Source of the DNA: Candidatus Woesearchaeota archaeon
Lineage (GTDB): Archaea; Nanobdellota; Nanobdellia; Woesearchaeales; GW2011-AR9
Length of the DNA: 33,723 nt
Direction of reading: 5' to 3'
Assembly: GCA_018670095.1 (NCBI GenBank)
Contig: JABHRR010000012.1
Span: 1 to 33,723 of the forward strand
Shown in pieces: positions 6,310 to 22,628 of this stretch (position 1 is the stretch's first letter; each line of letters begins with the position of its first letter). The notes beneath the pieces are model-generated. The model saw only the letters and a list, made by a program, of their open reading frames with translations. It did not search any database and was not told the origin of the DNA. The position numbers were made by a program, and so were the translations under genes.

Positions 6310-7056
6310 ATGAATAAAATGGTAAAACGAAATGATAAAACAAGAGCAATACAATTTATTTGTGATAAATTAGAAGATTCTAGATTGTATGATATCTTGA
6401 ATAAAAATGATAAAGGGATCTTGGTTACAGAAAAACCAGAATTTAGTGAGACTCCACAAAAAATAGTTGTTTTTATCCCTAATTTTTTAGGAACAATTAA
6501 AGATGTTAATCAAGCTTTTTATAATAATCAAAGTCAACAAATTGTTTCAGCGCCAGTATTATACAAAGATTGTAAAACTTCTTTTGTGAGACTGGTAGAT
6601 AATAGTTCATGGAGGGCCGATAAAAGTCTTAAAAGATATACTCCTAAAGAAATTAATCAAATGTTAAGTTTACGAAAAAAAGAAAAAGCTGTAATGGATA
6701 GATTTGGAAGTGGATTGACTTTTTATCAACCAGAAACTGAACGATTAGATGAATCATTAAAAGAATTTATTTTATATGATGTTGAATTAGATTATAGCCA
6801 TCTTAGTCCAGGAGATAATGGATACGAGTTTGCAAGAAACAGAACTTCTATTGATTACAAAATTGCTAGAGAGATTGGAGTTATTGAACCGGCAGCTAAA
6901 TTTAGTTTTGGAAATAATAGAAATTTTTATTTGGCTAAATTAGTCCCAGCAGAAGATCTTATAGCAGTTAAAGAAGATCTAATGAAAAATGCTATGGATG
7001 AGCTTGGAATTGATGATCCAGTAGAAGCATATAAATTAATGCATCCAGAAGATTAA
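6310..7056 (+). CDS. Hypothetical protein divergently transcribed from the RtcB-like gene
   Basis: 248-aa ORF; several possible ATGs (6303 is in another frame; 6310 and 6319 in frame); no recognised family. Confidence 0.7.
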   Translation: MNKMVKRNDKTRAIQFICDKLEDSRLYDILNKNDKGILVTEKPEFSETPQKIVVFIPNFLGTIKDVNQAFYNNQSQQIVSAPVLYKDCKTSFVRLVDNSSWRADKSLKRYTPKEINQMLSLRKKEKAVMDRFGSGLTFYQPETERLDESLKEFILYDVELDYSHLSPGDNGYEFARNRTSIDYKIAREIGVIEPAAKFSFGNNRNFYLAKLVPAEDLIAVKEDLMKNAMDELGIDDPVEAYKLMHPED

Positions 7057-7487
7057 ACAAAATTTTCTTTTTTTATTTCATTGATGATTTGATATTCTTG
7101 TTTCTCAGTAATATCAAAAGCTTCATCTAATTCATCTATAAAGTTTAAATATTCTTTAATATCTTTATGAATAGTTTCAACCATAAAATCAAAACCACCA
7201 TTAATTTCGTGAATAGAATTTATTGCTTGATGGTTTGTTAAGAATTCTTGCAAAGATTGTTTTTGTAAACGAGAAACTTGTAATGCCAATTTTGTATGAT
7301 GATGATATCCTAATTTTTTGAAATCTATTAGTGCAGTAAACTTTTGAATAATTCTTTCTTTATTGAAACGATTAATTTTATCATAGATAGTAGAAATGGG
7401 CATATCAATACTTTCTGAGATTGAACCTAAACTTTTTCTTGAATTTTTTCTCAAATGTGATATGATCAACCGCTCTTTTTCTTTCAT
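7053..7487 (-). CDS. Lrp/AsnC-family transcriptional regulator
   Basis: N-terminal HTH (SLGSISESIDMPISTIYDKINRF) plus C-terminal RAM-like region; paralogous to 18436..18873 and 22092..22544. Confidence 0.85.
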   Translation of the reverse strand: MKEKERLIISHLRKNSRKSLGSISESIDMPISTIYDKINRFNKERIIQKFTALIDFKKLGYHHHTKLALQVSRLQKQSLQEFLTNHQAINSIHEINGGFDFMVETIHKDIKEYLNFIDELDEAFDITEKQEYQIINEIKKENFV

Positions 7488-7535: not shown

Positions 7536-7548
7536 CGGAAAGTTTCCG
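7536..7548. promoter_or_regulatory. Operator-like palindrome CGGAAAGTTTCCG upstream of the decarboxylase
   Basis: Perfect 6+1+6 palindrome in the divergent Lrp/decarboxylase intergenic region; TATA-like TTTATAAAT follows at about 7564-7572. Confidence 0.65.
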
Positions 7549-7575
7549 AGAAATGTTTTTTCATTTATAAATCGT

Positions 7576-7588
7576 CGGAAAACTTACG
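7576..7588. promoter_or_regulatory. Degenerate second copy of the CGGAAA-N-TTTCCG motif (CGGAAAACTTACG)
   Basis: Imperfect match downstream of the TATA-like box, 40 bp from the first copy. Confidence 0.4.
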
Positions 7589-7649
7589 GAATTGTTACGG
7601 GATTTTTGGGGAAACGGAGATTAAAAGGAATGTCTTGGAAGTAAGTAAA

Positions 7650-9506
7650 ATGACACTAAAAAAACAATCTGACAAACCAAGTTTGAACTTTATTCGCTAC
7701 CACCACTTTTTAGATCCAGCTGGAACAAATAGAGATAGATTAGAAAGTATGGTCAATTATCTAACTAAAAGTTGGTTAGATTGGTATGTTGCGAATAATG
7801 TTGATGAAAAAATAACCCAAGAAATTTTTGACATATTCAAAAAAACTGAGAAAAATGAAGATGAAGTTGAAAAATGGTTTCATGAAAGAGAATTATTGTC
7901 AGAAAAAAGTAAAAAACCAGTCCCTAACACTATCAGTAGAGAAAAAGCTTGGGAAAAATACGGTATTAAAAACGGTGGTTTTCCTGAAAAAGGACATTCA
8001 TTAGTTCATGTATTAGAACAATTGGATAAAAAGACTAATCCTAGTATTAGATTTACGCAAAATTTTTTAGGTGAAATGCATCCACATGATTGTATTCCTG
8101 CTTTTGCTGGTAATTATATTGGATCTTTACTTAATCCTAATATGATAGCACAATGCGTTTCTCCTTCATTAAGTTATATGGAAAATAAAGTAGTTAATTG
8201 GTTAGCTGATTTAGTTGGTTATAATCAAGATGAGGAATCTACTTTTGCTTTGGTGGATGAAGGATTATTAAAAGATCTTGAAGAAACTAAGTATGTTCCC
8301 CATGGTAACATTGTTGGCGGAGGTACAGTGGCTAATCTTACCGCTTTATTAGTAGCGAGAAATAAACTTTTACGCAAAGAAGTTGGTGAAAAAGATTACA
8401 TTGGAGTTACAGAAAAAGGTATTGAAGAACTTTTACCTGAAGAAGTTAGTGAGAAAGATTATATTGGAGTTGCAGAAAAAGGTATAAAAGCTTATTGTCA
8501 AGAAGAGGGTATTAAAGACTTAGTTATTTTTTGCTCTGAAGAAGCTCATTATTCAATTGAAAAGTTAGGCGGATACATTGGAATCGGGGACAGTAATGTG
8601 ATTAAAGTTGGTACTGATGAGCAAGGAAGAATGCGTTCTGATTTGTTAGAAAAAGAAGTTAACAAAGCACAATCTGCTGGTAAAAAAGTCGTTGCAATTG
8701 TAGCTACTGCAGGAACAACTGGCTGTGGAGCAATTGATCCTTTAAACGAAATTGCTGATATTGCAGAGAAAGAAGGAATTTATTTTCATGTAGATGCTGC
8801 TCATGGTGGTGCATATTTAGCTTCAGATAAAATGAAAGGTAAGTTTGCTGGAATTGAAAGAGCAGATTCTGTTACAGTAGATGGGCATAAGATGTTTTAT
8901 ACTAATTACTCTTGTGGTGGAATTATCTTTAAGAATAAGAAAGACCCAGTAGATTTACTCAAACAAAGTGCACCATATATTTTAGACAAGAGTGACCATT
9001 ATGACTTAGGTAACAGTACTGTTGAAGGGTCAAGGGGAGCAAGTGGAACATTACAATTGTATGCTTCCATCACTGCTTTAGGAAAAGAAGGTTATGAAAC
9101 TGTTTTAGATCATACTATAGAAATGACTCATTACTTGGGTAAGTTGGTAGATGAAACTTCTACTCTGGAAAGGATACATGATCCAGAACTAAATCTGTTA
9201 TGTTTCCGTTATATTCCGGAAGGATGGGATAAAATTACTGACCGAGAAAAAATTAATCAACTTAACAATGATTTGAACAAAGAGATTTATGCAGAGGGAA
9301 ATTTCTATGTTGGTAGTACTAAAACAAAAATTGATGTAGAAGAAACCAAAATGAAAATTAGTGGAGAAGAAACCAATGTGCAAAGAGCAATTTTAGTACA
9401 TCCGTACATAGAAAAAGAAACTTTGGAAAACTTTGTAAACAAAGTTGAAGAATTGGGGCAAAAACTTGTAGGAGAGTATGTTCCTAAAATAGTTGAGGAG
9501 GTCTAG
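7650..9506 (+). CDS. Pyridoxal-phosphate-dependent group II amino-acid decarboxylase (tyrosine/DOPA/glutamate-type; substrate unknown)
   Basis: GGGTVANLTALLVARN, VDAAHGGAYLAS, and PLP-lysine region VDGHKMFYTNYSCGG; ORF starts with TTG at 7635, ATG at 7650 preferred. Confidence 0.85.
   Translation: MTLKKQSDKPSLNFIRYHHFLDPAGTNRDRLESMVNYLTKSWLDWYVANNVDEKITQEIFDIFKKTEKNEDEVEKWFHERELLSEKSKKPVPNTISREKAWEKYGIKNGGFPEKGHSLVHVLEQLDKKTNPSIRFTQNFLGEMHPHDCIPAFAGNYIGSLLNPNMIAQCVSPSLSYMENKVVNWLADLVGYNQDEESTFALVDEGLLKDLEETKYVPHGNIVGGGTVANLTALLVARNKLLRKEVGEKDYIGVTEKGIEELLPEEVSEKDYIGVAEKGIKAYCQEEGIKDLVIFCSEEAHYSIEKLGGYIGIGDSNVIKVGTDEQGRMRSDLLEKEVNKAQSAGKKVVAIVATAGTTGCGAIDPLNEIADIAEKEGIYFHVDAAHGGAYLASDKMKGKFAGIERADSVTVDGHKMFYTNYSCGGIIFKNKKDPVDLLKQSAPYILDKSDHYDLGNSTVEGSRGASGTLQLYASITALGKEGYETVLDHTIEMTHYLGKLVDETSTLERIHDPELNLLCFRYIPEGWDKITDREKINQLNNDLNKEIYAEGNFYVGSTKTKIDVEETKMKISGEETNVQRAILVHPYIEKETLENFVNKVEELGQKLVGEYVPKIVEEV
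8379..8504 (+). repeat. In-frame tandem duplication, 2 x 63 bp, inside the decarboxylase
   Basis: EVGEKDYIGVTEKGIEELLPE / EVSEKDYIGVAEKGIKAYCQE; units 8379-8441 and 8442-8504. Confidence 0.85.
9497..9502 (+). promoter_or_regulatory. Strong Shine-Dalgarno sequence GGAGGT for the TyrRS gene
   Basis: GGAGGT 8 nt upstream of ATG at 9511, overlapping the end of the decarboxylase CDS. Confidence 0.7.
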
Positions 9507-9510
9507 AAAA

Positions 9511-10746
9511 ATGAAAGATACATTATCTGTAGAAGAGATCGATAAAAGGATTCAATATTTACGTCGAGGAGTTGAAGATCTTATTGAACCTCAAGAACTT
9601 GAGTGGAAAATTGATAAAGCACACAAAGAAGAAAGATCTTTAGTAGTAAAGTTAGGAGTAGATCCAACTGCACCAGACATTCATTTAGGACATACTGTTC
9701 CTTTAATGAAACTTAAACATTTTCAGGATTTAGGTTATGATGTAGATTTTCTTATCGGAGATTTTACAGCTAGAATTGGAGATCCTAGTGGCAGATCAGC
9801 AGCTAGAAAACCAATGACTCATGAAGATGTGTTAGGTAATGCTGATGAATATAAAAGACAAATATTCAAAATTCTTAATCCTGACCAAACAAATATTGTT
9901 TATAATAGCGATTGGTTAAGTCCGATAAAATTGGACGATTTCATTAAAATTCTTGGAAAAGGAACAATCAACGAAATGGTTAAAAGAAGAGGAGTAGCAA
10001 ATCGTCTTGAAGAAGGCAACCCAGTTTCTGTTGCAGAATTTGTTTATCCATTCTTACAAGCTTATGATTCTGTTGCGATGAAAGCAGATGTAGAAATTGG
10101 CGGTGCTGACCAATTCTTTAATTTTGTTTTTACTAGAGAAATGCAAAGAGCTTATGGCCAAGAACCACAGGTAATTATGACTTTACCTTTACTTGTTGGA
10201 CTTGATGGTAAAGAAAAAATGAGTAAAACGTATGACAATCATGTAGCATTAGAAGATCCAGCTAATGAGATGTATGGTAAAATTATGTCCATATCAGATG
10301 AACAAATTATTAGTTATTTTGATTTACTAACAAATGTTCCGTATGAAGAAGTTTCTGAAATGCAAAGGGGATTGATAAAAGGAGAACAACATCCAAGAGA
10401 TTTAAAAGCTAAACTTGCTAGGGAAATAACGACTCAATACCATGATAAAAGTGCGGCATTAGAAGCTGAAAATAATTTTGATAGAATCTTTAAATATCGT
10501 CAAGAACCTGAGAATATTGAAACATTCTATTTGTCTAATAAAGAATCTAGAGATATTGGTTCGTTATTAGTAGAAATGGATTTAGCACCATCAAAGAGTC
10601 AAGTAAAAAGACTGATTAAACAAGGCGGTGTACGTGTTGACGGTGAAAAAATTGATGACCCTCATTATAACATTAATCCTGAAGAAGGAATGGTTATTAA
10701 TGTTGGGAAAAGGAATTTTAAAAAAATTGGTTATGAAAAAAAATAA
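9511..10746 (+). CDS. tyrS: Tyrosyl-tRNA synthetase, bacterial TyrZ-like type with C-terminal S4 domain
   Basis: HLGHT, FLIGDFTARIGDPSGRS, IGGADQFFNF, KMSKT; S4 segment SKSQVKRLIKQGGVRVDGEKIDD. Confidence 0.93.
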   Translation: MKDTLSVEEIDKRIQYLRRGVEDLIEPQELEWKIDKAHKEERSLVVKLGVDPTAPDIHLGHTVPLMKLKHFQDLGYDVDFLIGDFTARIGDPSGRSAARKPMTHEDVLGNADEYKRQIFKILNPDQTNIVYNSDWLSPIKLDDFIKILGKGTINEMVKRRGVANRLEEGNPVSVAEFVYPFLQAYDSVAMKADVEIGGADQFFNFVFTREMQRAYGQEPQVIMTLPLLVGLDGKEKMSKTYDNHVALEDPANEMYGKIMSISDEQIISYFDLLTNVPYEEVSEMQRGLIKGEQHPRDLKAKLAREITTQYHDKSAALEAENNFDRIFKYRQEPENIETFYLSNKESRDIGSLLVEMDLAPSKSQVKRLIKQGGVRVDGEKIDDPHYNINPEEGMVINVGKRNFKKIGYEKK

Positions 10747-10752
10747 ATAAAA

Positions 10753-11394
10753 ATGGGTAAAAAAATTAAAAAGAAAAAGAAAAAGAAGTTTGGCATTAAA
10801 CAGTTGAAAGCATTAACAAACAATGTTGGTGTTAAAAAGAATGAAATTAATAAAAATGTTGCTTTCATTTCTTTTGTTGAAGAACAGTTTGATCTTAGTA
10901 ATTATAACCATGTTTATGATCTTTGTTGTGGGAAAGGGATTGTGGGCACTTACTTTTCTTTAAAAAGAAATAATGTTACGGCAGTAGATAATAGTGGAAA
11001 TAATAAAAGAAACCAATTAATTAAACGTTTAGATGAAAAATTTTATGATTTTATTAATACTAGCATTTATGATCATGGCCATTTACAAAATGATTCCTTA
11101 GTTCTTTCTCTTCATGCTTGTGGTAATCTTACTGACAAAGTTATTGAATTAGCATTACAATCACAAAGTGATTTTGCGGTAATGAGTTGTTGTCATGGAG
11201 ATAAGCAATATTTTTCTCCACGCGAAATCCCTGATGTTAATTTAGTTGACAAATTAGGGAGAGATCATTATGCAGATTTGTTAAGATTAAATTATGTTTC
11301 AGAGATAGGTTATACTGCTGGCATATTTGAAATTTCTGAAGACATTACTCCCAAGAATAGAATTATTTGGGGAAAGAAGAAATCCAGGGAATAA
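10753..11394 (+). CDS. SAM-dependent methyltransferase-like protein
   Basis: VYDLCCGKGIVGTYFSLKRNNVTAVDNS and LSLHACGNLTDKVIELALQ..FAVMSCCHG; Lys-rich N-terminus; directly downstream of tyrS. Confidence 0.75.
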   Translation: MGKKIKKKKKKKFGIKQLKALTNNVGVKKNEINKNVAFISFVEEQFDLSNYNHVYDLCCGKGIVGTYFSLKRNNVTAVDNSGNNKRNQLIKRLDEKFYDFINTSIYDHGHLQNDSLVLSLHACGNLTDKVIELALQSQSDFAVMSCCHGDKQYFSPREIPDVNLVDKLGRDHYADLLRLNYVSEIGYTAGIFEISEDITPKNRIIWGKKKSRE

Positions 11395-12154
11395 TCCCAT
11401 TGCTTGCTTGAGTACAAACACCATCTGTGCGATATAATTCTTTTTGATTAAATTTAAATTTATCTCCATAAAAATCAGTAATAATTCCTCCAGCTTCATT
11501 TATAATAACAGAGGGTGCACAAATGTCCCACTCTCCAATTTCTGTTTTGCATTCAGGTCTCGCAACATGCGCTTTAGTTTTGCCTATAGCAACAGACATT
11601 AAACAATAACCAAAAACATTTCCATGAATTTGTCTCTCTGCTTCAACTAAATTTACTAACTGCTCATTTCTATTATTATACATACTACCAGCAAACTCTA
11701 TTGGAGATTTTAAATCTGTTTTTAATAATACTTTTTTTGGCAATTCATTTTCAGTTACCTGGTATGCCCCTTGATTTTTAATAGCATAGAATAACTCTTT
11801 TCTAGCAGGCACATAGACAACTCCTAAAATTGGTTCATGACCAATGGCTAATCCAATATGAACTGCAAAATAACTAAATTTTTCCTCATAACTTTGTAAA
11901 TATTTTAATGAACTACCACTTCCATCAACAGGATCAATGATCCATGTTCGTGGTTGATCTAATCTACTTAAATCATCATTGTCTTTTACTAATTCTTCAA
12001 TAATTAATGCATCTTCAGGATAATTCTTTGAAACTAATTCTGCTAGTCTAGATGCGACTAGCATATCTTTTTTTTCAACATTTCCATCAAATATAATCTC
12101 TTCAGCGATATGAGATGCTTTAATTGCAAATCTTAATTCATTTTCCAAATTCAT
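11363..12154 (-). CDS. Inositol-monophosphatase / CysQ-family phosphatase
   Basis: WIIDPVDGSGSSLKYL and EWDICAPSVIINEAGGIITD motifs; overlaps the methyltransferase tail-to-tail by 32 bp. Confidence 0.85.
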   Translation of the reverse strand: MNLENELRFAIKASHIAEEIIFDGNVEKKDMLVASRLAELVSKNYPEDALIIEELVKDNDDLSRLDQPRTWIIDPVDGSGSSLKYLQSYEEKFSYFAVHIGLAIGHEPILGVVYVPARKELFYAIKNQGAYQVTENELPKKVLLKTDLKSPIEFAGSMYNNRNEQLVNLVEAERQIHGNVFGYCLMSVAIGKTKAHVARPECKTEIGEWDICAPSVIINEAGGIITDFYGDKFKFNQKELYRTDGVCTQASNGIIPWISSFPK

Positions 12155-12210
12155 TTTTTCAAAATAATAATATTCCTATCTCCTTTTCAGATGTTATAAA
12201 TAGTTTACCA

Positions 12211-13296
12211 TCATAACAATCTCACTCCCAATCCTGAACCAGGAGGTACTTTAATCCCACCTGATACTAATTCTAATCCGGAAGTTATTTTATCGGTTAT
12301 TTCATAAACCCCTACCAATTCAGTGGTGATAATATTCTCACTTAAAGAAGCTAAATGAACACTTGCAGCAGTACCAATATCAGTTTCAATACATGAACCA
12401 ATTATACATTTAATATTATTATTTTCAGCCAAATCAAGAATTTCTTTCGCTCTTAAAATTCCTCCAGCTTCGTGAAGTTTGATATTAAACAAATGGCATG
12501 CTTTTTGTGCAATAATTATTTTTGCGTCTTCTGGGCCCCATAATGAGGCGTCAGCCATAATTTTTAAAGGGCTTTTTTCAGTGATTTTTGCAAGTTCAGA
12601 ACTATTTCTTACTGGGTCCTCAATCCAAGCAATACTATAATCTTTAATTTTATCAATCATTTCTAAACTCTTTTCAACAGTTTTCCATCCTTCATTAACA
12701 TCAAGAGAGAAAATGATATTCTTATCAACTAATTGATTGATTAATTTAATTTTTTCTAAATCTGATTGATCATCATTTCCAACTTTAAGTTTAAGACAAT
12801 TAAATCCTTGTTGAATAGCTCTTTTAGCCTCTTCAAAACAACTTTTAACATCATTACTCATAGTCAAAACATAAGTTAATTTCACTTCATCTTTTACTTT
12901 ATTACCCAACAATAAATTTATTGGTGAACCTTCAATTTTACCTAACAAATCAAACACAGCCATTTCTACAGCAGCTTTACTACTAGGATTAAATGGAATC
13001 ACTTTTTCCATCTCTTTAACTAAAACCCGTATATCATCGATAGAATTTATTTCCCTTCCAATTAAGATTGGTTTAAAAAATTTATCAATAACTTCTATAA
13101 ATCCGGCTTGTGTCTCTCCAGTAATAATCCAAGGGCAAGCAAATTCCCCGATACCTCTTCTAATTTCTCCTTCTTTATCTTCCGCGAACAATTCTAAAAG
13201 ACCATAATTTAGTTCTTTGATTTCTCCTAATGCAAAAATAAAAGGTTTTCTTAATGATAAATCTATCTTTTTAGTCCTAATTTCTTTGATAATCAT
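12211..13296 (-). CDS. Enolase-superfamily (MLE subgroup) enzyme: N-succinyl/N-acyl amino-acid racemase, OSBS or dipeptide-epimerase-like
   Basis: LKLKVG (KxK), SLDVNEGW, AWIEDP, IMADASLWG, FNIKLHEAGG: both catalytic lysines and three metal ligands appear present. Confidence 0.85.
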   Translation of the reverse strand: MIIKEIRTKKIDLSLRKPFIFALGEIKELNYGLLELFAEDKEGEIRRGIGEFACPWIITGETQAGFIEVIDKFFKPILIGREINSIDDIRVLVKEMEKVIPFNPSSKAAVEMAVFDLLGKIEGSPINLLLGNKVKDEVKLTYVLTMSNDVKSCFEEAKRAIQQGFNCLKLKVGNDDQSDLEKIKLINQLVDKNIIFSLDVNEGWKTVEKSLEMIDKIKDYSIAWIEDPVRNSSELAKITEKSPLKIMADASLWGPEDAKIIIAQKACHLFNIKLHEAGGILRAKEILDLAENNNIKCIIGSCIETDIGTAASVHLASLSENIITTELVGVYEITDKITSGLELVSGGIKVPPGSGLGVRLL

Positions 13297-14405
13297 TTTA
13301 TTTCCTCAACATATTTTTCTAATATAGTGATATATTTTTGAAAACTATCTAAGTTTAAATTTTCTTCGGGAGCATGCATCCCATTACCCGAAGGGCCAAA
13401 ACAAATAACTGGAATTTTTTTTTCTGCAAAAAAGCGTGCATCAGAAGCCCCCTGACCTCCCCTATAAAGAACATTTCCAGTTTCATTTGTAATTATTTCA
13501 GCTAATTTTTTTACTTCTACATTTTCTGTACTGCAACCAACCGAGAAACCATGTGGAGCACGACCAAATTCTTTAACTATAATTTCTCCTCCTTCAATAT
13601 AATTCTCTTTAGCAGTTTTATTGAATACAGAAAGAATCTGTTCTCTAGTTAACTCGGGAATATACCTTAAATTAACGACAGTTTCACAATAATCGGGGAC
13701 TTGATTTTCTCTTTCATTTAAACATTTGATTAATGTTTGTGAAAAAGTAGTTTTACCTAATAAATCATTACTTTTCTCAAAGATTGAATTACTTCTTACA
13801 GCCTGAATATAACTAGATAATTGTTCAATTGCATTTATTCCCTCTTCAGGTTTGGAACTGTGTGCAGATTTACCTTTATATGCTACTTCAACATTTAAGA
13901 AACCTTTTGCACTGATACCAATTTGCATTTCAGAAGGTTCAGCAGCAATTACAAAATCTGGTTTGATTAATGGATCTTCCAAATGCACTATCTTTCCTGC
14001 CCCATTAAAACCGCCTATTTCTTCATCTGTTACAAAAAGATAGGCAATGTTTGGATTTACTTTAGTTGTAGCTAAATGAAGCATTGCAGCTACTCCTGCT
14101 TTCATATCTAAAACACCTAAACCATATGCTAATTCATTTTCAATAGCCAACTTAAATGGATCATGCAATTCCCATCCCTTTGCATCTACAGTATCTAAAT
14201 GTCCTAAAAATAATATTCTGGGAGTATAATTCTCATTAACTGATGCATAAACTGAATTATGTCCATTGAATGAAAAGTTTTTTAAGGCATAACCTGCAGG
14301 CTGAAGATATTTCTCAATAACTAATTCTAATAATGAATTAGCTCCATCTTTAGTCGATGAATCGTGTTCAACAAGTTCTTTAAGTATTTTTATGATTTCG
14401 TCCAT
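13293..14405 (-). CDS. M20-family metallopeptidase/deacylase (succinyl-DAP desuccinylase / acetylornithine deacetylase-like)
   Basis: ILFLGHLDTVDAKGWELHDPF, YGLGVLDMKAGVAAML, VTDEEIGG, GGQGASDARFF, HAPEE. Confidence 0.9.
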   Translation of the reverse strand: MDEIIKILKELVEHDSSTKDGANSLLELVIEKYLQPAGYALKNFSFNGHNSVYASVNENYTPRILFLGHLDTVDAKGWELHDPFKLAIENELAYGLGVLDMKAGVAAMLHLATTKVNPNIAYLFVTDEEIGGFNGAGKIVHLEDPLIKPDFVIAAEPSEMQIGISAKGFLNVEVAYKGKSAHSSKPEEGINAIEQLSSYIQAVRSNSIFEKSNDLLGKTTFSQTLIKCLNERENQVPDYCETVVNLRYIPELTREQILSVFNKTAKENYIEGGEIIVKEFGRAPHGFSVGCSTENVEVKKLAEIITNETGNVLYRGGQGASDARFFAEKKIPVICFGPSGNGMHAPEENLNLDSFQKYITILEKYVEEIK

Positions 14406-15201
14406 TTTCCCCCCTAATTAGTTTATTTTCTGATTTTTCTAATAAATAAAAGTTCTTGATTAAACCATCTGGAGTTCCGTTTTTTGAAATAAAGTCCATA
14501 ATATGGTAACCTTGTGAAAAAAAGTTTTCAAACAATTCTCGAGTATCATATCTCCATTTTATTGCTTCATCAAAATCTAATTTTTTAATTTCTTGGAAAT
14601 TATGAGGAACTTCAATCAAGATTTCTTCTGGACCAATTATCTTATCTAAAGACCGTTCATTTTTATTTTCAAACTTTTTTTTGACCCTCTCACTATTGAC
14701 TCTCCAAGTTACATTAAGACGGTCTGAAGGAAGACCATCATTAATTCCATCTTGATTACCATAATTATCTCTTTGATATTCTCCTTCAACAATTCCACCA
14801 ATTTTAGCTATGTATAATTTAGCGTTTGCACATTCTAAAGGATCATAAGTCCATTCAAGAGTTTCTATTCCATATGACTGAGATTGTTTTAACTGTTCTT
14901 TAAATAGTTCTTCTCCAACAGATTTACTTTGATAATCTGGATGAATACCAATCATATGTAAATATTGTTTTTTAGGATTTGGTGTAGGAAAAGTGTAAAT
15001 AAAACCAACCATTTTTCCATCAATTTCAGCTCCTAAAGGAGTACAGGGACCAACACCTATAGATTTCATAATGTGGGCTGGGATAGCATCGCGATAATCA
15101 AATCCCCAAACTTGCACTTGTAAATCAGTAATCTTTTCTAGGTCATCAATATCATTTAATTTTCTAATTGAAATTTCTGTTGTTAAATCATTATTTCCCA
15201 T
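14380..15201 (-). CDS. GNAT-superfamily N-acyltransferase, COG3375-like
   Basis: LQVQVWGFDYRDAIPAHIMKSIGVG, GAEIDGKMVGFIYTF, HMIGIHPDYQSKSVGEELFKEQ, LEWTYDPLECANAKLYIAKIGG, DGLPSDRLNVTW. Confidence 0.85.
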   Translation of the reverse strand: MGNNDLTTEISIRKLNDIDDLEKITDLQVQVWGFDYRDAIPAHIMKSIGVGPCTPLGAEIDGKMVGFIYTFPTPNPKKQYLHMIGIHPDYQSKSVGEELFKEQLKQSQSYGIETLEWTYDPLECANAKLYIAKIGGIVEGEYQRDNYGNQDGINDGLPSDRLNVTWRVNSERVKKKFENKNERSLDKIIGPEEILIEVPHNFQEIKKLDFDEAIKWRYDTRELFENFFSQGYHIMDFISKNGTPDGLIKNFYLLEKSENKLIRGENGRNHKNT

Positions 15202-15207
15202 TTTATA

Positions 15208-16395
15208 TCACTTACATCTCCGTAAAATATTACAAATATCTTTGACTTGTTCATCATTACCAACCGTTATTCGTGCATATCCTCTATCTTTTGTTCCTTC
15301 GTATGGATTTTGGTTAGATACTTTAACACCTAAAGAAGTTAAAGTGTCATTCAAATCTTTACCAACACCATCATTATATTTTGCTAGTAAAATATTGGTA
15401 ACAGAACCTCTAACATAATTTAAATGAGGATTTTCTTCTATAGCGTCTTCCATTAATTTTCTTCGCACGGCCGTTTGATCTCTTACCATTTGCATATGTG
15501 ATTGATCTTCTAAAGCCAAAGGCGCTATAGCAGCCCCAACATTATTCATATCATAAGGCAAAGCCCATTCTTTGAAAACACCACCATCTTTAATGTCATC
15601 AGATACTACCCCATAACCAACTCTTAACCCCGCCATTCCGTAACCCTTAGAAAATGTTCTTAAAACAATTAATTGATTTGCTTTATCTTTAACTAAGTCA
15701 ATAGCAGTGTAAGGTTCATTTAAAGAATCATTGAATTCTCCATATGCTTCATCAACTACTAAAATGCCTCCATTTTTAACAACATGTTCGTGTACGTTGG
15801 CAATAAATTCTAATGAAGCAATTTGTCCACTGGGATTGTTTGGAGTTGAAATCCAGGTTACTTTTGGTTTAAGTTTGTTAATTTTATCAATCAATCTAGT
15901 TTCAACTTTTGTTGTAAATGTATAATTATCTTTTTCATCCCGATCAACAAATAATAATTCTGTTCCTGCTCTTTGATGGGCATCTTTAAATCTAAAAAAT
16001 TCTGGTGCAGTCGCTAAAGATATTTCTCCAGGATTAACAAATACACGCGGAATTGTTTCAATTAAACAATCACTACCGGTTCCAAGAACAATGTTGTCTT
16101 TACTTATATTATAAAACTCTGAGATTGCTTCTTTAAGACCATCTAATTGTTCTTCTGGATAATTAAGAATATCAATTAATGATAATTCTCTAGTTTTATC
16201 TAATGCTGTTGGTGTTGGACCAATGATACTTTCTCCTAAATTTAGATGCAACCAAAATTCATTTACTGAATCACTTATCTCCTCTTGACTAGCAATAGCA
16301 TAACTTTTTGCTTTAGTTTGTAAATAATTATTTGCTATATTACTTAATACATCGTCAACGATATGACGATCACCTTCGTGTGTGTTGTTTTTCAT
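15208..16395 (-). CDS. Class I/II PLP aminotransferase, histidinol-phosphate/aromatic-type
   Basis: TWISTPNNPSGQI, ILVVDEAYGEF, VLRTFSKGYGMAGLRVGYG; ATG at 16395 (MKNNTHEGD) preferred because the ORF start at 16431 lies inside the tRNA. Confidence 0.85.
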   Translation of the reverse strand: MKNNTHEGDRHIVDDVLSNIANNYLQTKAKSYAIASQEEISDSVNEFWLHLNLGESIIGPTPTALDKTRELSLIDILNYPEEQLDGLKEAISEFYNISKDNIVLGTGSDCLIETIPRVFVNPGEISLATAPEFFRFKDAHQRAGTELLFVDRDEKDNYTFTTKVETRLIDKINKLKPKVTWISTPNNPSGQIASLEFIANVHEHVVKNGGILVVDEAYGEFNDSLNEPYTAIDLVKDKANQLIVLRTFSKGYGMAGLRVGYGVVSDDIKDGGVFKEWALPYDMNNVGAAIAPLALEDQSHMQMVRDQTAVRRKLMEDAIEENPHLNYVRGSVTNILLAKYNDGVGKDLNDTLTSLGVKVSNQNPYEGTKDRGYARITVGNDEQVKDICNILRRCK

Positions 16396-16424
16396 TTGTT
16401 TCTTTCCTCCATTATGAATATAAG

Positions 16425-16589
16425 TCCCCACTCCCGGACTTTCAAATCTTCAGGAAGAGTTGTAGTCTCCCTGAGGGATACTTGAACCGGGGATCTCTCG
16501 GTCACGGCTGGTCGTTTTTCATTTCCAGTCATACGACGTAATCAAACGACATCTACAGCCGAGCGTTCTAGCCACTGAACTAAGTAGGG
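16425..16589 (-). tRNA. tRNA-Tyr(GTA) with two predicted introns: about 16503-16552 (anticodon loop, 37/38) and about 16439-16480 (T-loop, 59/60)
   Basis: Removing the introns leaves a 73-nt cloverleaf: CCCTACT TA GTTC AGTGGCTA GAAC G CTCGG CTGTAGA CCGAG AGATC CCCGG TTCAAGT CCGGG AGTGGGG A; C1:G72, A73 and a GUA anticodon loop typical of archaeal tRNA-Tyr. Confidence 0.9.
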
Positions 16590-16770
16590 ATATTGTAACT
16601 TCTACTATCACATTTGAGAACTTCCAGAATAATTTGGAAATTCTTAATCTAATAATAATAGAAGTTATAGCTAACACTAAAGCCAAAACAATTCATTTGT
16701 TTTATTTGGTTTTTAGTGTTCATATTTATATCCAATGTGTTTATTTAAATATGGTTTACTATGTTTTTTT

Positions 16771-16783
16771 CGGAAACTTTCCG
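16771..16783. promoter_or_regulatory. Operator-like palindrome CGGAAACTTTCCG (15-bp TCGGAAACTTTCCGA at 16770-16784)
   Basis: Perfect palindrome between the tRNA-Tyr/aminotransferase operon (-) and an Lrp gene (+); minus-strand TATA-like TATTTAAATA nearby. Confidence 0.65.
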
Positions 16784-16906
16784 AGGATAAAACAGTTTAA
16801 TCTATTCAAAGTGATTTTAATAAGGTAAAAGCATTCATATACTTATTGGTAAGATATTCAATTTTATGACGAAAAATTTATAAATAGTTGAATAATCTAC
16901 AACTTT

Positions 16907-17356
16907 ATGAAAAACATACAACCAAAACTGATCAAATTATTCAAAGAAGGTTATTGTACACCACAAATTTCTAAAATTGCTAAAAAACTCAAAGAACCGT
17001 CGACAACTATTCATTATAATATCAAAAGATTAGAAAAAGAGAAAGCAATAATTGGATATAAAGCAGTTTTTAATCACAAAAAGATTGAAGAAAGTTTTGG
17101 TTGTTTCGTATTAATCAATTTATCCCCAGATGAATATGGGAACCCAGAAAGTATTGCTCGAGAATTAGGAAAACATCCTGAAATTGAAAGTATTAACATC
17201 ATTACAGGAGATTGGGAAATGATTCTCAAGGTTAGAACAAAAGATCAAGAAGCATATTATGATTTGATTAAAAGAGTAATTTCAAGAAAAGGGGTAACAA
17301 ACATTAAATCATTGACTTCACTAAAAGAGATTAAGAATGAGTCAATTGTATTGTAA
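16907..17356 (+). CDS. Lrp/AsnC-family transcriptional regulator
   Basis: N-terminal wHTH (TPQISKIAKKLKEPSTTIHYNIKRLEKEKAIIGYKAV) and RAM-like C-terminal domain (IESINIITGDWEMILKVRTKD). Confidence 0.88.
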   Translation: MKNIQPKLIKLFKEGYCTPQISKIAKKLKEPSTTIHYNIKRLEKEKAIIGYKAVFNHKKIEESFGCFVLINLSPDEYGNPESIARELGKHPEIESINIITGDWEMILKVRTKDQEAYYDLIKRVISRKGVTNIKSLTSLKEIKNESIVL

Positions 17357-17452
17357 TCACCCAACAACAAACCCTTCTCTCTTAACTTCATCAATTAGAT
17401 AATGGATTTGTTTATCTTCTATGTTGTATTGTTCATGCAATTTTTCTAAAAA
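17357..17452 (-). pseudogene. Truncated 3' remnant of an Lrp/AsnC-family regulator
   Basis: Minus-strand translation FLEKLHEQYNIEDKQIHYLIDEVKREGFVVG* matches the C-termini of 18436..18873 and 22092..22544; homology ends at the operator-like motif. Confidence 0.85.
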
Positions 17453-17453
17453 C

Positions 17454-17466
17454 CGGAAACTTTTCG
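17454..17466. promoter_or_regulatory. Operator-like motif CGGAAACTTTTCG (one mismatch to CGGAAACTTTCCG)
   Basis: Upstream of the small membrane protein/zinc-ribbon pair, adjacent to the Lrp remnant. Confidence 0.5.
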
Positions 17467-17531
17467 GGATTACCAACAAAAGCCTAATTAAAAGGGAATA
17501 CCAAAAATATTCTATTGGAGGTTAATATAAA

Positions 17532-17699
17532 ATGAGTAGTAAAAGTAATGGAGTAATGTTAATATTTTTAGGAGTAGGATCGTTTGTTTTACCATTTTTT
17601 GGTTTGCAATTTAAGATACTAACTTTATTTGGCGGTTTTCAATGGGTTATTTCATTAATCTTAGCTGGGTTAGGTTTATTCCTAATGGTAAGAGAATGA
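17532..17699 (+). CDS. Small two-TM membrane protein (55 aa), not in the supplied ORF track
   Basis: GGAGGT SD at about 17517-17522; MSSKSNGVMLIFLGVGSFVLPFFGLQFKILTLFGGFQWVISLILAGLGLFLMVRE*; ATGA overlap with the next gene. Confidence 0.75.
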   Translation: MSSKSNGVMLIFLGVGSFVLPFFGLQFKILTLFGGFQWVISLILAGLGLFLMVRE

Positions 17700-17935
17700 T
17701 TCTCTTCGGCACAAAAACCAGACACACTAAAGTAAAAGATGAAGTAATACTATCTAACTCGTGTCCAAAATGTCAGGGAAATTTAGAACTGTATGACGTT
17801 AAAGAATGGTTTACACTTTATTTCATACCTATCTTTCCTTTTAACAAAGTTGATTCATGTTACAAATGCGATAAATGTAAACAAGCATACATGAAAGAAA
17901 TTAAGAGTATGTTTGTAGGTTCACAAAAGAATTAA
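17696..17935 (+). CDS. Zinc-ribbon protein
   Basis: SCPKCQGNLELYDVKEWFTLYFIPIFPFNKVDSCYKCDKCKQAYMKE; ATG at 17696 preferred over the upstream start in the ORF track. Confidence 0.8.
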   Translation: MILFGTKTRHTKVKDEVILSNSCPKCQGNLELYDVKEWFTLYFIPIFPFNKVDSCYKCDKCKQAYMKEIKSMFVGSQKN

Positions 17936-17961
17936 AAAGTAAATTCATTTCGGTAATTAAA

Positions 17962-18435
17962 ATGGCAATAATTGGCAAAGATTATAGAAACACTGCATTA
18001 GCAATTTTTAGAAGAGAAGATGGTAAAATATTAATCGCATTAAATCCAAGAACAAATTCTTTAGACAAAACATTTGTTGATAAAAATACCTATAAATTTC
18101 CTCAAGGAGGAATAGATGGAAATGAAGAGCCTTTAGTAGCATTGAAAAGAGAGATGCATGAAGAATTAGGATTAGAATTAGAAGATGATTGGAATATTAA
18201 ACAATTAGAAAAACATATCAGTTATTGGTTTAGAAATGAAAATAAGCCTGACTTTGAGATAAGATTACATGCGTTTTTAATTAATGTGAAAAATTTAGAT
18301 GAAAAATTATTAAAAGTTGATCCTGAAGAAGTTGCAGAAGTAAAATGGGTTGATCCAAAAGAGGTAGACAATTTAGAATTAGGTATTAGACATCATGCAT
18401 ATTTAACTATTTTAAGACAATTTGAATTAATTTAA
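17962..18435 (+). CDS. Nudix hydrolase
   Basis: Nudix box GGIDGNEEPLVALKREMHEELGLE; KFPQGGID context. Confidence 0.92.
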   Translation: MAIIGKDYRNTALAIFRREDGKILIALNPRTNSLDKTFVDKNTYKFPQGGIDGNEEPLVALKREMHEELGLELEDDWNIKQLEKHISYWFRNENKPDFEIRLHAFLINVKNLDEKLLKVDPEEVAEVKWVDPKEVDNLELGIRHHAYLTILRQFELI

Positions 18436-18873
18436 TCATCCAACAATAAACCCTTCTCTTTTAACTTCATCAATTAGATAATGGATTTGTTTATCTTCTA
18501 TGTTATAATTATCTTCTAATTTCTCCAGGAAATCATCTAACTCTTTGATATTCCTATGTACAGTTTCAATAATAAAATTCCAACCATGATTAACTTTATG
18601 TAAACTATTAATACAAGGGTTGATGTTTAAATGGTGTTTTAATTTTTCTTTGTTTTCTCTATTAACTTTTAGAAAAACTAATGCTTTAGTGTGGAATCCA
18701 AGTTTTGAATAATCTAAAATGATAGTACTTTTTTTAATCACATCTTCATTCAATTCTTTTAATAAATCAAACAAAGTAGAAATTGGGATATTGGTGCGTT
18801 TACTTATGCTGGTGAGTTTCTCTCTGGAATTATTTCTCAGCTCTAGGATTAGCTGAATTTTTTTGGAGTTCAT
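18436..18873 (-). CDS. Lrp/AsnC-family transcriptional regulator
   Basis: Close paralog of 22092..22544 (RNNSREKLTSISKRTNIPISTLFDLLKEL...; C-terminal HYLIDEVKREGFIVG). Confidence 0.85.
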   Translation of the reverse strand: MNSKKIQLILELRNNSREKLTSISKRTNIPISTLFDLLKELNEDVIKKSTIILDYSKLGFHTKALVFLKVNRENKEKLKHHLNINPCINSLHKVNHGWNFIIETVHRNIKELDDFLEKLEDNYNIEDKQIHYLIDEVKREGFIVG

Positions 18874-18959
18874 TTACACCTCATTTAGATAGAAAGGGGT
18901 CAAAAGATATATATCTAACCAATATGTTTTTATATTAGTACATACCTTATATACTTGTC

Positions 18960-19922
18960 ATGGCTGAATCAAGAAAAATTGTTAAATCCGGAAATACTAG
19001 TTATATTGTATCTTTACCAATCAATTGGATTAGAAAAAATGAGTTAGAAAGTGGGAATCACGTGGAGATAGAAGAATCTGAATTAGGGGATCTTACCATT
19101 TCAGCAAAAAAAAATATAATTGCTCCAAAAAAGGATATTATAACTATAAAAGTTGATGGCAAGGATGATGAAACTATTAATTTTGAATTTTTAGCAGCTT
19201 ACATTAAAGATCCTGCATCCATTATTTTTGAAGGTGAATCAATTGTTTCAAAAACAAATAAATTATTAGATGAAGTTAGATTTTTTATTGGTCTAGATGT
19301 TGTTGAACAGACCACACAAAATATTGTAGTGAAAAACTTTTTTTCATTAGATAAAGAGACATCACCTTCTTTTTTAGTTAAAAGAATGGATATGGTAAAT
19401 AAAGCAAGTTTTGTGATGGTAAATGCTTTTTTTAAGAAAAGTTTTGCAAATGAAGATTTTTTTGAATTACAAAAACTTAATGAACAAAATAAACGTTTGT
19501 TCATATTAGTAAGAAAAAGTAGTATTAAACTTTTTGAATATCCAAACTTAATGAAAAAAATTCAAACAAACCATTTACAAGTTTCCAAAGAAAAAATATT
19601 TGCTAAATCATTTAGACATATTTCTAGAATGTTACTTTCATTAGGAAATACTTTTCTATTTTTAGATCCTTCAAAACAAGGGATCAATATATTACGTGAA
19701 ATCTTTACAAAAACTGAAAGTGATTATAATAGTCTTATTAATGCCATTAATAATCGTTCTCATGAAGACATTTATTTATTTTTGAGAAGGCATTCAAAAC
19801 AAAAAATTGAAATCAACCATTTTCTTAAAACATTAGAAGATCCTTTGATGATTCAGACAATTAATTCACTATTATCAATATATAATGACTTAGAAGATGC
19901 AGCTAGAGAAGCATTAGTTTAA
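18960..19922 (+). CDS. Archaeal PhoU-like phosphate regulator with N-terminal AbrB/SpoVT domain
   Basis: AESRKIVKSGNTSYIVSLPINWIRKNELESGNHVEIEE followed by an all-helical PhoU-like region. Confidence 0.82.
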   Translation: MAESRKIVKSGNTSYIVSLPINWIRKNELESGNHVEIEESELGDLTISAKKNIIAPKKDIITIKVDGKDDETINFEFLAAYIKDPASIIFEGESIVSKTNKLLDEVRFFIGLDVVEQTTQNIVVKNFFSLDKETSPSFLVKRMDMVNKASFVMVNAFFKKSFANEDFFELQKLNEQNKRLFILVRKSSIKLFEYPNLMKKIQTNHLQVSKEKIFAKSFRHISRMLLSLGNTFLFLDPSKQGINILREIFTKTESDYNSLINAINNRSHEDIYLFLRRHSKQKIEINHFLKTLEDPLMIQTINSLLSIYNDLEDAAREALV

Positions 19923-20947
19923 AGTTCTATAGCTTTTGTTTTTCCAGTATTAATAATTAAAATCTTAGATTTTTTTGGAATCTTATCTTTCATTTGTAAA
20001 AGCATGCCTAATCCTGCAATACCAGAAGGTTCACATTTAATATTTTGTTCTTTAGCAATCTTTATTGCTTGTTCTAAGAACTTTTCTTTTAATAAATGAA
20101 CATTTGATCCATGTCCACAAAAACCAGATAACCGATAACATTTCAGCCATTGTTCATCAAAAAGAGTAAAAGGTCGATGAGGGGCATATAATTTATCGGC
20201 TTTACTTCTAGGATCATTTACTGTTGCACCAATAAAACTACAATTTCTCAATACTTTAACATCACCGCTAAAACGGGGATCATGTGACATTGTTGAAATT
20301 TCTCTTTTATTTATGTTTAAAATATTTTCATAAAGATGACCACTACCAAAAGGAATAAAACAGTAATCTGGAGAATGATTAATTATTTCATAACTTAACC
20401 AATCATAATATCTCATTACTGGATCTAAGCCTTCACTTGAAGTAACATCAATGCCTTTTGTATTTTCAGTTAATTCTAAAATGTCTTTCCAACTTAAAGG
20501 TTTTCTGGATAAATCTGTTGAATAAATTTCACACCCTAATGATTCAAGTAATTTGACCACTTTTTCTTTTAAATCCAAGTCTATTAAACATTTTAAAGGA
20601 GGTAATTTATACTTATTTAATACAGTTTGAATTGCAACAGCAGCAGCCCCAGAAGTTATGATTGATAATTGAGGTAATTTATCTTTAATCTGACCATTCT
20701 TCTTAGCTAACAAAATATCTTTATAGGTTACCACCATCTCCCAAGCCATACGGTCTTTATGTGTTCCGGTTGGATTTTTACTTTCGTCTTTTAACCAAAC
20801 ATTATTAAATCCAGGAACATCAATTTTAATAGTTGGAGTAGCAGGAAACTTCGGATTATCCGGAGGAAATTCTGGTTTTGTAGGGTCGTTTTCTGAAGCC
20901 ACTCGAATAGAATAAAGAATTTTTCTTTCTTTTTCGTTTAGAGCCAT
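19919..20947 (-). CDS. Threonine-synthase-like (fold type II) PLP enzyme, copy A
   Basis: VWLKDESKNPTGTHKDRMAWEM (PLP Lys), SGAAAVAIQ, FIPFGSGHLYENI. Confidence 0.82.
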   Translation of the reverse strand: MALNEKERKILYSIRVASENDPTKPEFPPDNPKFPATPTIKIDVPGFNNVWLKDESKNPTGTHKDRMAWEMVVTYKDILLAKKNGQIKDKLPQLSIITSGAAAVAIQTVLNKYKLPPLKCLIDLDLKEKVVKLLESLGCEIYSTDLSRKPLSWKDILELTENTKGIDVTSSEGLDPVMRYYDWLSYEIINHSPDYCFIPFGSGHLYENILNINKREISTMSHDPRFSGDVKVLRNCSFIGATVNDPRSKADKLYAPHRPFTLFDEQWLKCYRLSGFCGHGSNVHLLKEKFLEQAIKIAKEQNIKCEPSGIAGLGMLLQMKDKIPKKSKILIINTGKTKAIEL

Positions 20948-20965
20948 ATTAATTAATTAAAATAA

Positions 20966-20983
20966 TTAGGTATATAAACCTAA
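20966..20983. promoter_or_regulatory. Palindrome TTAGGT-ATATAA-ACCTAA overlapping the TATA-like element of PLP copy A
   Basis: 6-bp perfect arms around ATATAA, about 20-35 bp upstream of the start codon at 20947. Confidence 0.5.
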
Positions 20984-20995
20984 CGAAAAAATAAA

Positions 20996-22048
20996 TCAAA
21001 GTTTTAAACCATTAATAGCTTTTGTTTTTCCAGTATTTACGATAAGAATTTTACTATTTTTAGGAATTTTATCTTTCATTTGTAAAAGCATACCTAAGCC
21101 TGCAATACCAGAAGGTTCACATTCAATATTTTGTTCTTTAGCAATCTTTATTGCTTGTTCTAAGAACTTTTCTCTTAATAGATGAACGTTTGATTCTGGA
21201 CCACAAAAACCCGCTAAACGATAACATTTAATCCATTGTTCATCAAAAATATTAAAAGGCCGATGAGGAGCGTATAATTTATCGGCTTTACTTTTAGGAT
21301 TATTTACAGTTGCACCAATAAAATTACATTTTCTTAATATTTTAATGTTTCCACTAAAACGTGGGTCATTTGGTGCAGTAGAAACTTCTTTTTTATTTAT
21401 GTTTAAAATGTTTTCATAAAGATGACCACTACCAAAAGGAATAAAACAATAATCTGGAGAATGATTAATTATTTCATAACTTAACCAATCATAATATCTC
21501 ATTACTGGATCTAAACCTTCACTTGAAGTAACATCAATACCTTTGGGGTTTTCAGTTAATTCTAATATATCTTTCCAACTTAAAGGTTTTCGAGATAAAT
21601 CTGTCGAATAAATTTCACAACCTAATGATTCAAGAGATTTAACAATTTCTTCTTTTAAGTCTAAATCAACTAAACATTTTAAGGGAGGCAATCTGTATTG
21701 ATTTAACATTGATTGAATTGCAACTGCAGCCGCTCCAGAAGTTATAATTGAAAGTGCAGGTAATTTTTCATCTATTTGGTCATTCTTTTTTGCTAAAAGA
21801 ATTTCTTTATAAGTTACAACCATTTCCCAGGCCATACGATCTTTATGTGTTCCCGTAGGATTTTTACTTTCATCTTTTAGCCAAACATTATTGAATCCAG
21901 GAACATCAATCTTAATAGTAGGAGTGGCAGGAAATTTAGGATTTTGAGGAGGAAATTCTGGTTTAGTAGGATCATTATGTGTTGGATCTTCATTAGAAGT
22001 CTTTTTAATTAGATAAAGAATCTTTTGTTCATCATCAGTAAGAGTCAT
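20996..22048 (-). CDS. Threonine-synthase-like (fold type II) PLP enzyme, copy B (tandem paralog)
   Basis: Near-identical to copy A over most of its length; same PLP-lysine and phosphate-binding motifs. Confidence 0.82.
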   Translation of the reverse strand: MTLTDDEQKILYLIKKTSNEDPTHNDPTKPEFPPQNPKFPATPTIKIDVPGFNNVWLKDESKNPTGTHKDRMAWEMVVTYKEILLAKKNDQIDEKLPALSIITSGAAAVAIQSMLNQYRLPPLKCLVDLDLKEEIVKSLESLGCEIYSTDLSRKPLSWKDILELTENPKGIDVTSSEGLDPVMRYYDWLSYEIINHSPDYCFIPFGSGHLYENILNINKKEVSTAPNDPRFSGNIKILRKCNFIGATVNNPKSKADKLYAPHRPFNIFDEQWIKCYRLAGFCGPESNVHLLREKFLEQAIKIAKEQNIECEPSGIAGLGMLLQMKDKIPKNSKILIVNTGKTKAINGLKL

Positions 22049-22067
22049 TTTTAAACAAAAATGACTC
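22042..22067. promoter_or_regulatory. 26-bp inverted repeat GAGTCATTTTT-AAAC-AAAAATGACTC spanning the start codon of PLP copy B
   Basis: 11-bp perfect arms; start codon 22046-22048 lies within one arm; TATA-like AAATTTATAAATTT just upstream on the minus strand. Confidence 0.65.
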
Positions 22068-22091
22068 CAAATTTATAAATTTAACTCAAAA

Positions 22092-22544
22092 TCATCCAAC
22101 AACAAACCCTTCTCTCTTGACTTCATCGATTAGATAATGAATTTGTTGATTCTCAATCATAAACTTTTCATGTAATTTTTCCAAAAAACTATCTAACTCT
22201 TTGATATTCTTATGAACTGTTTCGATTAAAAAACTCCAACTATTATTGATCTTGAAAATAGTATTTACATTTGGATTTAAGTTAAGATGGTTTCTTAATT
22301 TTTCTTTATCTTCATTGTTGACTTTTAAAAATACTTTTGCTCGAGTATGGAAACCTAGTTTAGAGAAATCCAAAAGAACAGTACTTTTAGTAACCAAACC
22401 ACCTTGCAGCTCTTTCAGCAGATCAAATAGAGTAGAGATGGGAATATTTGTCTTCTTACTAATAGTAGTAAGTTTCTCCCGAGAGTTCTCTCTCAGATGT
22501 GTTAAAAGCTGTAGGGTTTTCGGATTCATTTGAGTATTTACCAC
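22092..22544 (-). CDS. Lrp/AsnC-family transcriptional regulator
   Basis: HTH RENSREKLTTISKKTNIPISTLFDLLKEL; paralog of 18436..18873; alternate start Met6 at 22529. Confidence 0.85.
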   Translation of the reverse strand: MVNTQMNPKTLQLLTHLRENSREKLTTISKKTNIPISTLFDLLKELQGGLVTKSTVLLDFSKLGFHTRAKVFLKVNNEDKEKLRNHLNLNPNVNTIFKINNSWSFLIETVHKNIKELDSFLEKLHEKFMIENQQIHYLIDEVKREGFVVG

Positions 22545-22628
22545 CCCTCAGTGATATTTTAAAACAGAAAGACTTATATAAATGTATGGCGTTATAACCC
22601 TTACTAATATACTAAAAACACCCCTAAA

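Follow-up and report, generated by a model that had tools for sequence, protein, structure and literature searches.

A twice-interrupted accessory tRNA-Tyr gene in the putative leader of a tyrosine operon in a woesearchaeal genome

The DNA analyzed here, hereafter the window, is a stretch of 33,723 nt of contig C41 (JABHRR010000012.1) in the draft genome of a Candidatus Woesearchaeota archaeon (G000, 84% complete). It carries a tRNA-Tyr(GUA) gene amid two sets of genes that revolve around tyrosine (Table 1). Read along the minus strand, the parts follow each other in the order TATA-like box, leader ORF, long hairpin, tRNA-Tyr and, 29 nt on, an aminotransferase gene, and no terminator was found between the tRNA and this gene. 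The acyltransferase, deacylase, and enolase-superfamily genes that come next (12211-15201) presumably form a set resembling the N-succinyl route from D- to L-amino acids. The opposite strand encodes a decarboxylase and a bacterial-type tyrosyl-tRNA synthetase (TyrRS), whose nearest matches outside the order are bacterial (37-47%). In G000, only this TyrRS and a TrpRS were found, which may reflect the incompleteness of the genome. Further along, the window has two closely similar PALP (threonine-synthase-like) genes in tandem (19919-22048).

Table 1. Features of the tyrosine region of the window and leader reading frames next to the linked tRNA-Tyr genes of relatives.
Feature	Position in window	Strand	Basis or remark
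tRNA-Tyr exon 1 (positions 1-37)	16553..16589	-	Spliced product folds to an exact cloverleaf
Intron 1, 50 nt, at 37/38, relaxed splice sites	16503..16552	-	Homologous intron in relatives
tRNA-Tyr exon 2 (positions 38-59)	16481..16502	-	Spliced fold
Intron 2, 42 nt, at 59/60 in the T-loop	16439..16480	-	Central helix TTCA/TGAA, 3' bulge AG^T
tRNA-Tyr exon 3 (positions 60-73)	16425..16438	-	Spliced fold
TATA-like box ATTTAAAT upstream of leader ORF	16743..16750	-	Read from sequence
Leader ORF MNTKNQIKQMNCFGFSVSYNFYYY, then stop	16649..16723	-	Counterparts at six other bacterial-type TyrRS loci
Leader hairpin A	16673..16720	-	
Leader helix P1	16596..16667	-	5' strand 16667-16652, with Tyr codons; 3' strand 16611-16596
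Hairpin P2, enclosed by P1	16644-16617	-	
Palindrome CGGAAACTTTCCG, candidate operator	16771..16783		Before the tRNA leader
Same palindrome	7536..7548		Upstream of the decarboxylase-TyrRS operon
Lrp/AsnC regulator, divergent from tRNA leader	16907..17356	+	PF01037
HisC-like aminotransferase	15211..16395	-	Start 29 nt past tRNA 3' end, GGAGG between
GNAT acyltransferase	14383..15201	-	
M20 peptidase / ArgE-DapE-like deacylase	13296..14405	-	
Enolase-superfamily enzyme (muconate cycloisomerase / o-succinylbenzoate synthase-like)	12214..13296	-	
Methyltransferase	10753..11394	+	PF13679; adjoins TyrRS in several relatives
Accessory bacterial-type tyrosyl-tRNA synthetase	9493..10746	+	TIGR00234, E 1.9e-107
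Group II PLP-dependent amino-acid decarboxylase	7635..9506	+	
Lrp-like regulator, divergent from decarboxylase	7053..7487	-	Resembles other Lrp/AsnC-family proteins of the window
Leader ORF in G036			MNIKQSLPNSAIRFSVNYNFYYYY
Leader ORF in G107			MQIVKNPKILILHSCNSGFYYIY
Leader ORF in G119			MKVETKTTTTTTIVTNSFNYKYY
Leader ORF in G182			MNKQTSNQSRDFSSLQTGFYYYQ
Leader ORF in G306			...SDLCYSFYYYYY
Leader ORF in G334			...VSLRTVFYCY

The leader ORF has 24 codons and ends in YNFYYY-stop, with Tyr codons right before the stop. When the ORF is masked, the predicted helix P1 opens and the tRNA is still folded; the tRNA indeed folds with P1 open or closed. Within P1, a synonymous Asn change (AAC/AAT) between the window and a relative, G036, is matched by a G to A change on the opposite strand. 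No competing antiterminator helix was identified in this leader, masking of the ORF gave no consistent alternative, and a search for T-boxes gave no Rfam covariance match at the gathering threshold.

The same arrangement recurs elsewhere in the order. Bacterial-type TyrRS genes occur in 10 of the 338 genomes of the order, and most of these genomes keep another TyrRS, which indicates that the bacterial-type enzyme is accessory. A tRNA-Tyr gene is linked to it within about 6 kb at seven of the ten loci (none was found in G063, G156, and G236). Each of the seven has, 41-68 nt upstream of the linked tRNA, a short ORF with Tyr codons at its end. The seven peptides end in ...SYNFYYY, ...NYNFYYYY, ...GFYYIY, ...FNYKYY, ...GFYYYQ, ...YSFYYYYY, and ...VFYCY. 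At least three Tyr among the last eight codons were found in 6/7 linked leaders versus 0 of the 41 ordinary tRNA-Tyr genes whose upstream sequence was long enough for the comparison (Fisher p about 6e-7, calculated by hand). The five leaders tested fold with z values of -7.8 (the whole leader of the window, against dinucleotide shuffles), -5.6, -4.5, -6.0, and -3.7, versus +0.8 upstream of the ordinary tRNA-Tyr copy on contig C7 of G000. A 16-bp helix in the window and in G182 has the Tyr codons as its 5' strand, and its 3' strand reaches almost to the start of the tRNA; G036 is similar. For G306 and G107 the pairing is partial, and the minimum-energy folds predicted for G119 and G334 do not show it. 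As in the window, there is no terminator before the next coding sequence in G107, where the linked tRNA precedes a TyrA-like protein (identified by eye), nor in G182, where it precedes the TyrRS.

The predicted leader architecture is thus well supported, and from it we infer a regulatory action. A different reading is that the leader is only an operator region at the DNA level, made of inverted repeats and served by Lrp-type regulators, the Tyr-ended ORFs having no regulatory role. Lrp genes and the palindrome CGGAAACTTTCCG do stand beside both transcription units. The palindrome has three sites in the window at no more than one mismatch, when 0.06 are expected, and a similar one lies upstream of the linked copy of G036 (L100:10638); G119 has a homologue of the Lrp/AsnC regulator at 16907, 67% identical, at the matching place. 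Yet an operator alone would leave unexplained both the run of Tyr codons before the tRNA in seven genomes, seen in none of the 41 ordinary copies, and a leader folding far beyond that of the shuffles. We regard it as unlikely, and we favor an attenuator-like leader.

What follows this leader is a tRNA that would be assembled from three exons. A sequence-only reading of this DNA had proposed that removing two segments, about 50 nt at 37/38 and 42 nt at 59/60, leaves a 73-nt tRNA-Tyr, and folding confirms it: the exact cloverleaf is the minimum-free-energy fold (-28.5 kcal/mol) of the spliced 73-mer, CCCTACTTAGTTCAGTGGCTAGAACGCTCGGCTGTAGACCGAGAGATCCCCGGTTCAAGTCCGGGAGTGGGGA. Archaeal tRNA-Tyr is recognized by a C1:G72 pair and a short variable arm, both of which the window copy has along with the cloverleaf and the GUA anticodon. 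In its unspliced form the gene was not detected by ARAGORN or by Rfam RF00005.

The geometry of the T-loop intron had been called near ideal, and this holds for all but the 5' side. The TTCA/TGAA helix and the two AG^T cuts stand: the central helix has 4 bp in register with the cuts, and the 3-nt bulge of the 3' side is cut between its second and third bases. At the 5' splice site, AGU lies opposite a single U in a 3x1 internal loop. Since a strict bulge-helix-bulge (BHB) would have a clean 3-nt bulge there, we class the site as a relaxed BHB. An alternative 7-bp helix at this site is 1.6 kcal/mol more stable than the BHB fold. A Watson-Crick central helix arises in 1.1% of the dinucleotide shuffles of the intron, and the exact placing of TGAA is not a matter of chance.

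The relatives tell us what kind of insert this is. A pattern search of the order gave 96 distinct tRNA-Tyr genes that could be parsed, a few of the parses being unreliable, and 28 of these genes have an insert exactly at 59/60. The inserts, of 13-89 nt, have unrelated sequences, and removing them always restores a 7-nt T-loop, TTCRANT. Their central helix is fully paired (4/4) in 22 of the 28 cases, whereas 4-mers taken from the interior pair in 2.3%. Covariation is seen between nucleotide 57 and the intron base opposite it (A/U 13, G/C 8, G/U 2, A/C 0; Fisher p = 9e-5). Only 8 of the 27 inserts tested have strict symmetry on the inner side, so that many of these introns are relaxed. Still other tRNA-Tyr genes are interrupted at 53/54 or within the variable region. 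Altogether, more than one third of the parsed tRNA-Tyr genes of the order have T-arm introns. Two of them (L161 and L167) apparently have three introns, at 37/38, in the variable region, and at 59/60. In G000 itself, the genes for tRNA-Phe(GAA) (L080, G000:C89:19303-19423) and tRNA-Pro(UGG) (L083, G000:C49:813-920) have apparent D-arm inserts, and hence non-canonical introns would not be limited to tRNA-Tyr.

The anticodon-loop intron has a homologous counterpart of ~50-60 nt at 37/38 in nearly all parsed relatives. Its splice site is relaxed, as the earlier reading had it, with GGCUG/CAGCC pairing, a 5-nt bulge on the 5' side, and a 3' bulge of more than 3 nt. Of 81 parsed relatives, 77-79 share a motif inside the intron, GA...AUGA (by eye similar to a kink-turn), with CAG after it. 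Such conservation suggests a conserved role, which could be to bind a protein or to help modify U35. For the window copy, all of this makes a strong case, built on sequence comparison, that both introns are removed by splicing.

The gene is not the only tRNA-Tyr(GUA) of its genome. Another copy, with the canonical 37/38 intron only, lies at G000:C7:12551-12674, and it makes the window copy dispensable. The sequence-only reading had held that an intact tRNA-Tyr elsewhere, combined with a lack of reads across these junctions, would speak against splicing here. The first half of this applies, but it does not overturn splicing: in G001, a genome of the same genus that is 97% complete, the sole tRNA-Tyr found (L084) has the same kind of 59/60 intron, which must be removed if the cell translates Tyr codons. 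A hairpin with a GCGTTCT-like loop is present 3' of many ordinary tRNA-Tyr genes (L002, L005, L006, L007, L008, and L084) and missing after the window copy. The surroundings of the window copy are themselves variable. A segment of 16.5 kb (7078-23592) is absent at the orthologous place in the sister genome G002, where the flanks align with G002:C29:1-10753, and is replaced by other sequence in G001. In this segment lie the tRNA and its aminotransferase operon, as well as the decarboxylase, TyrRS, and methyltransferase genes. No flanking direct repeat indicative of site-specific integration was found at the 7078/23592 junctions. By these genome comparisons, the window tRNA-Tyr is an accessory copy within the leader of a putative tyrosine operon.

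How would such introns be spliced? According to reviews, only (alpha-beta)2 and epsilon2 endonucleases process relaxed non-canonical introns efficiently (PMC6379350, PMC4033280). We searched the order for its endonuclease. The domain PF01974 was found in 223 of 238 genomes, nearly always once (eight genomes have two matches), and in the family of G000 almost every genome has one clear EndA match. The copy of G000 ends at a contig edge, and its features were read from family members: a catalytic protein of ~180 aa with an N domain and a catalytic domain, the latter with an invariant Tyr/His/Lys triad (Y155, H165, and K195). It is colinear and nearly gapless with the EndA of M. jannaschii (an alpha subunit) and retains the acidic C-terminal (L10-like) loop, whereas the alpha subunit of N. 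equitans, the closest solved chain (3iey_A), is without this loop. A Crenarchaea-type loop is absent from the EndA of the order. With the EndA profile, no gene for a second subunit was found in a set of 14 genomes, of which 12 are at least 90% complete. This profile matches the N. equitans beta subunit (NEQ261) in the PDB with E 1e-15; it does not reach the beta subunits of A. pernix or P. aerophilum in the PDB, so a divergent beta of crenarchaeal type could escape it. On these grounds the splicing endonuclease of the order looks homomeric. Full-length EndA proteins (e.g., L064:1477-2133) have a Lys-rich low-complexity N-terminal tail that is absent from the M. jannaschii protein and could take over the task of the RNA-binding loop that broad-specificity enzymes have. 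Some 10 kb from the interrupted tRNA, the window encodes a 299-aa protein (5322-6221) that is weakly RtcB-like, with E 2.8e-4 (below the Pfam cut-off).

These results bear on the idea that a Thermoproteota-like, heteromeric endonuclease splices the two introns of what would be a plain housekeeping tRNA-Tyr. The sequence-only reading had hinted at such an enzyme. In its favor, non-canonical introns generally go with (alpha-beta)2 or epsilon2 enzymes (PMC6379350, PMC4033280), and many 59/60 sites of the order are relaxed on their 5' side. The survey does not support a heteromeric enzyme: there is one EndA gene per genome, with the acidic C-terminal loop retained, and no beta in the 14 genomes though NEQ261 is within reach of the profile. 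Against the housekeeping part of the idea stand the second tRNA-Tyr of G000 and the accessory nature of the locus. We hold the whole to be improbable. Similarities with nanoarchaeal systems are partial. In the nanoarchaeon Nst1, only the catalytic EndA subunit has been identified, and the position of the tRNA-Tyr intron is common to N. equitans and Nst1 (PMC3655853). The order shares the tRNA-Tyr intron, and its nearest solved EndA is the N. equitans alpha subunit, but it has many T-arm and variable-loop introns and no N. equitans-like beta. The likeness of the EndA to that of N. equitans and the small genome size point to a probable DPANN, Nanoarchaeota-like lineage, and on these grounds a thaumarchaeal origin was rejected. 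As for the intron itself, the non-canonical positions listed previously in archaea include 53/54, 56/57, and 59/60 (PMC4090602), and multiple or non-canonical tRNA introns are also known outside the Thermoproteota, e.g., in Asgard archaea (PMC11291895). The window intron has in common with these the 59/60 position, the 4-bp central helix, the cuts within bulges, and the co-occurring 37/38 intron, and it differs in that the EndA of the order looks homomeric and lacks a Crenarchaea- or ARMAN-specific loop. The 59/60 intron is therefore of a kind already known; what is new is the lineage, with its unexpected enzyme.

A dispensable copy could also be a decaying duplicate, i.e., a pseudogene with a chance insertion. 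Besides the other tRNA-Tyr of G000, this reading can point to the linked copy of G036 (L100, G036:C10, minus strand near 10311-10475). In that copy the 5' acceptor strand is lost and the 3' strand of the leader helix has taken its place. Hence the copy cannot be a normal tRNA; at present it may serve as no more than a tRNA-like regulatory element. For the G036 copy we also considered a bacterial-style class II tRNA-Tyr, and rejected it: removing a 30-nt insert at 45/46 as an intron restores a 5-nt variable loop. The window copy is different. All its stems pair, and its acceptor stem differs from that of the C7 copy by compensatory changes (A5-U68 versus U5-A68, U7-A66 versus A7-U66), which argue for function and against a pseudogene. 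The linked copies have full stems restored in G107, G119, and G182 and are apparently intact in G306 and G334, and the position recurs in seven genomes. Decay of the window copy thus strikes us as quite doubtful.

Two further readings have hardly any probability left. The T-loop insert could be retained, giving a tRNA with an enlarged T-loop, and standard tRNA searches do miss the unspliced gene, but 28 unrelated inserts exactly at 59/60 with a covarying central helix, one of them in the sole tRNA-Tyr found in G001, contradict it. Equally far-fetched is a misbinning of contig C41, with the second tRNA-Tyr from another organism: G000 is a draft, but it has a single copy of the flanking Lhr helicase, with 99% identity to the one in G002, which makes misbinning unlikely, both flanks align with G002:C29, and intron 1 of the window copy is most similar to that of the genome's own C7 copy.

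We consider it rather likely that the window holds a functional accessory tRNA-Tyr(GUA) in an operon leader that acts by leader-peptide attenuation and whose regulated unit includes the cognate tRNA. The TATA-like box that precedes the leader ORF would drive a transcript that runs through the hairpin and the tRNA into the aminotransferase operon. The leader ORF would be translated, probably leaderless. A single homomeric EndA would excise the relaxed 37/38 intron and the 59/60 BHB intron, and a tRNA ligase would join the exons. When Tyr-tRNA is in short supply, the ribosome would stall at the Tyr codons of the leader and, because these codons form the 5' strand of P1, open this helix just upstream of the tRNA. 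The opening of P1 would then alter the output of tRNA-Tyr and of the operon. The accessory bacterial-type TyrRS may charge the window tRNA.

Several known systems resemble parts of this scheme. The bacterial trp, his, phe, and ilv attenuators likewise have, upstream of the metabolism genes of an amino acid, a short ORF with a run of codons for that amino acid, and this run is part of one strand of a helix in the leader. The window leader differs from them in being archaeal, in having the cognate tRNA gene before the structural gene, and in that no classical terminator was found. As in T-box leaders, a tRNA would be functionally linked to the leader of an amino-acid operon, but here the tRNA is encoded in cis and sensing would be via translation. 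In lactic acid bacteria, tyrS-tdc operons place a TyrRS beside a tyrosine decarboxylase. The window shares with these an accessory TyrRS beside a PLP decarboxylase, whose substrate is only putative here, but it has an archaeal host, Lrp regulators, and an extra tRNA-Tyr. We propose that the window leader is leader-peptide attenuation in a new form, archaeal and with the tRNA in cis; no precedent for a translation-coupled leader-peptide switch for amino acids in archaea was found in the open-access literature searched.

In its widest form, the scheme is an archaeal ribosome-mediated Tyr attenuator that comprises a leader peptide with Tyr codons, a switch helix, a cognate spliced tRNA-Tyr, an operon of Tyr metabolism, and an accessory bacterial-type TyrRS, and that spread as an accessory module in an order splicing relaxed T-arm introns with a homomeric EndA. 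We give this full form an even chance. If it is true, archaea have a translation-coupled leader-peptide switch for amino acids, and a tRNA gene would be both the sensor target and the regulated product of that switch. The rule that only (alpha-beta)2 and epsilon2 enzymes splice relaxed non-canonical introns efficiently would then become testable, and the order, with one homomeric-looking EndA and yet abundant relaxed T-arm introns, would be a natural test of it.
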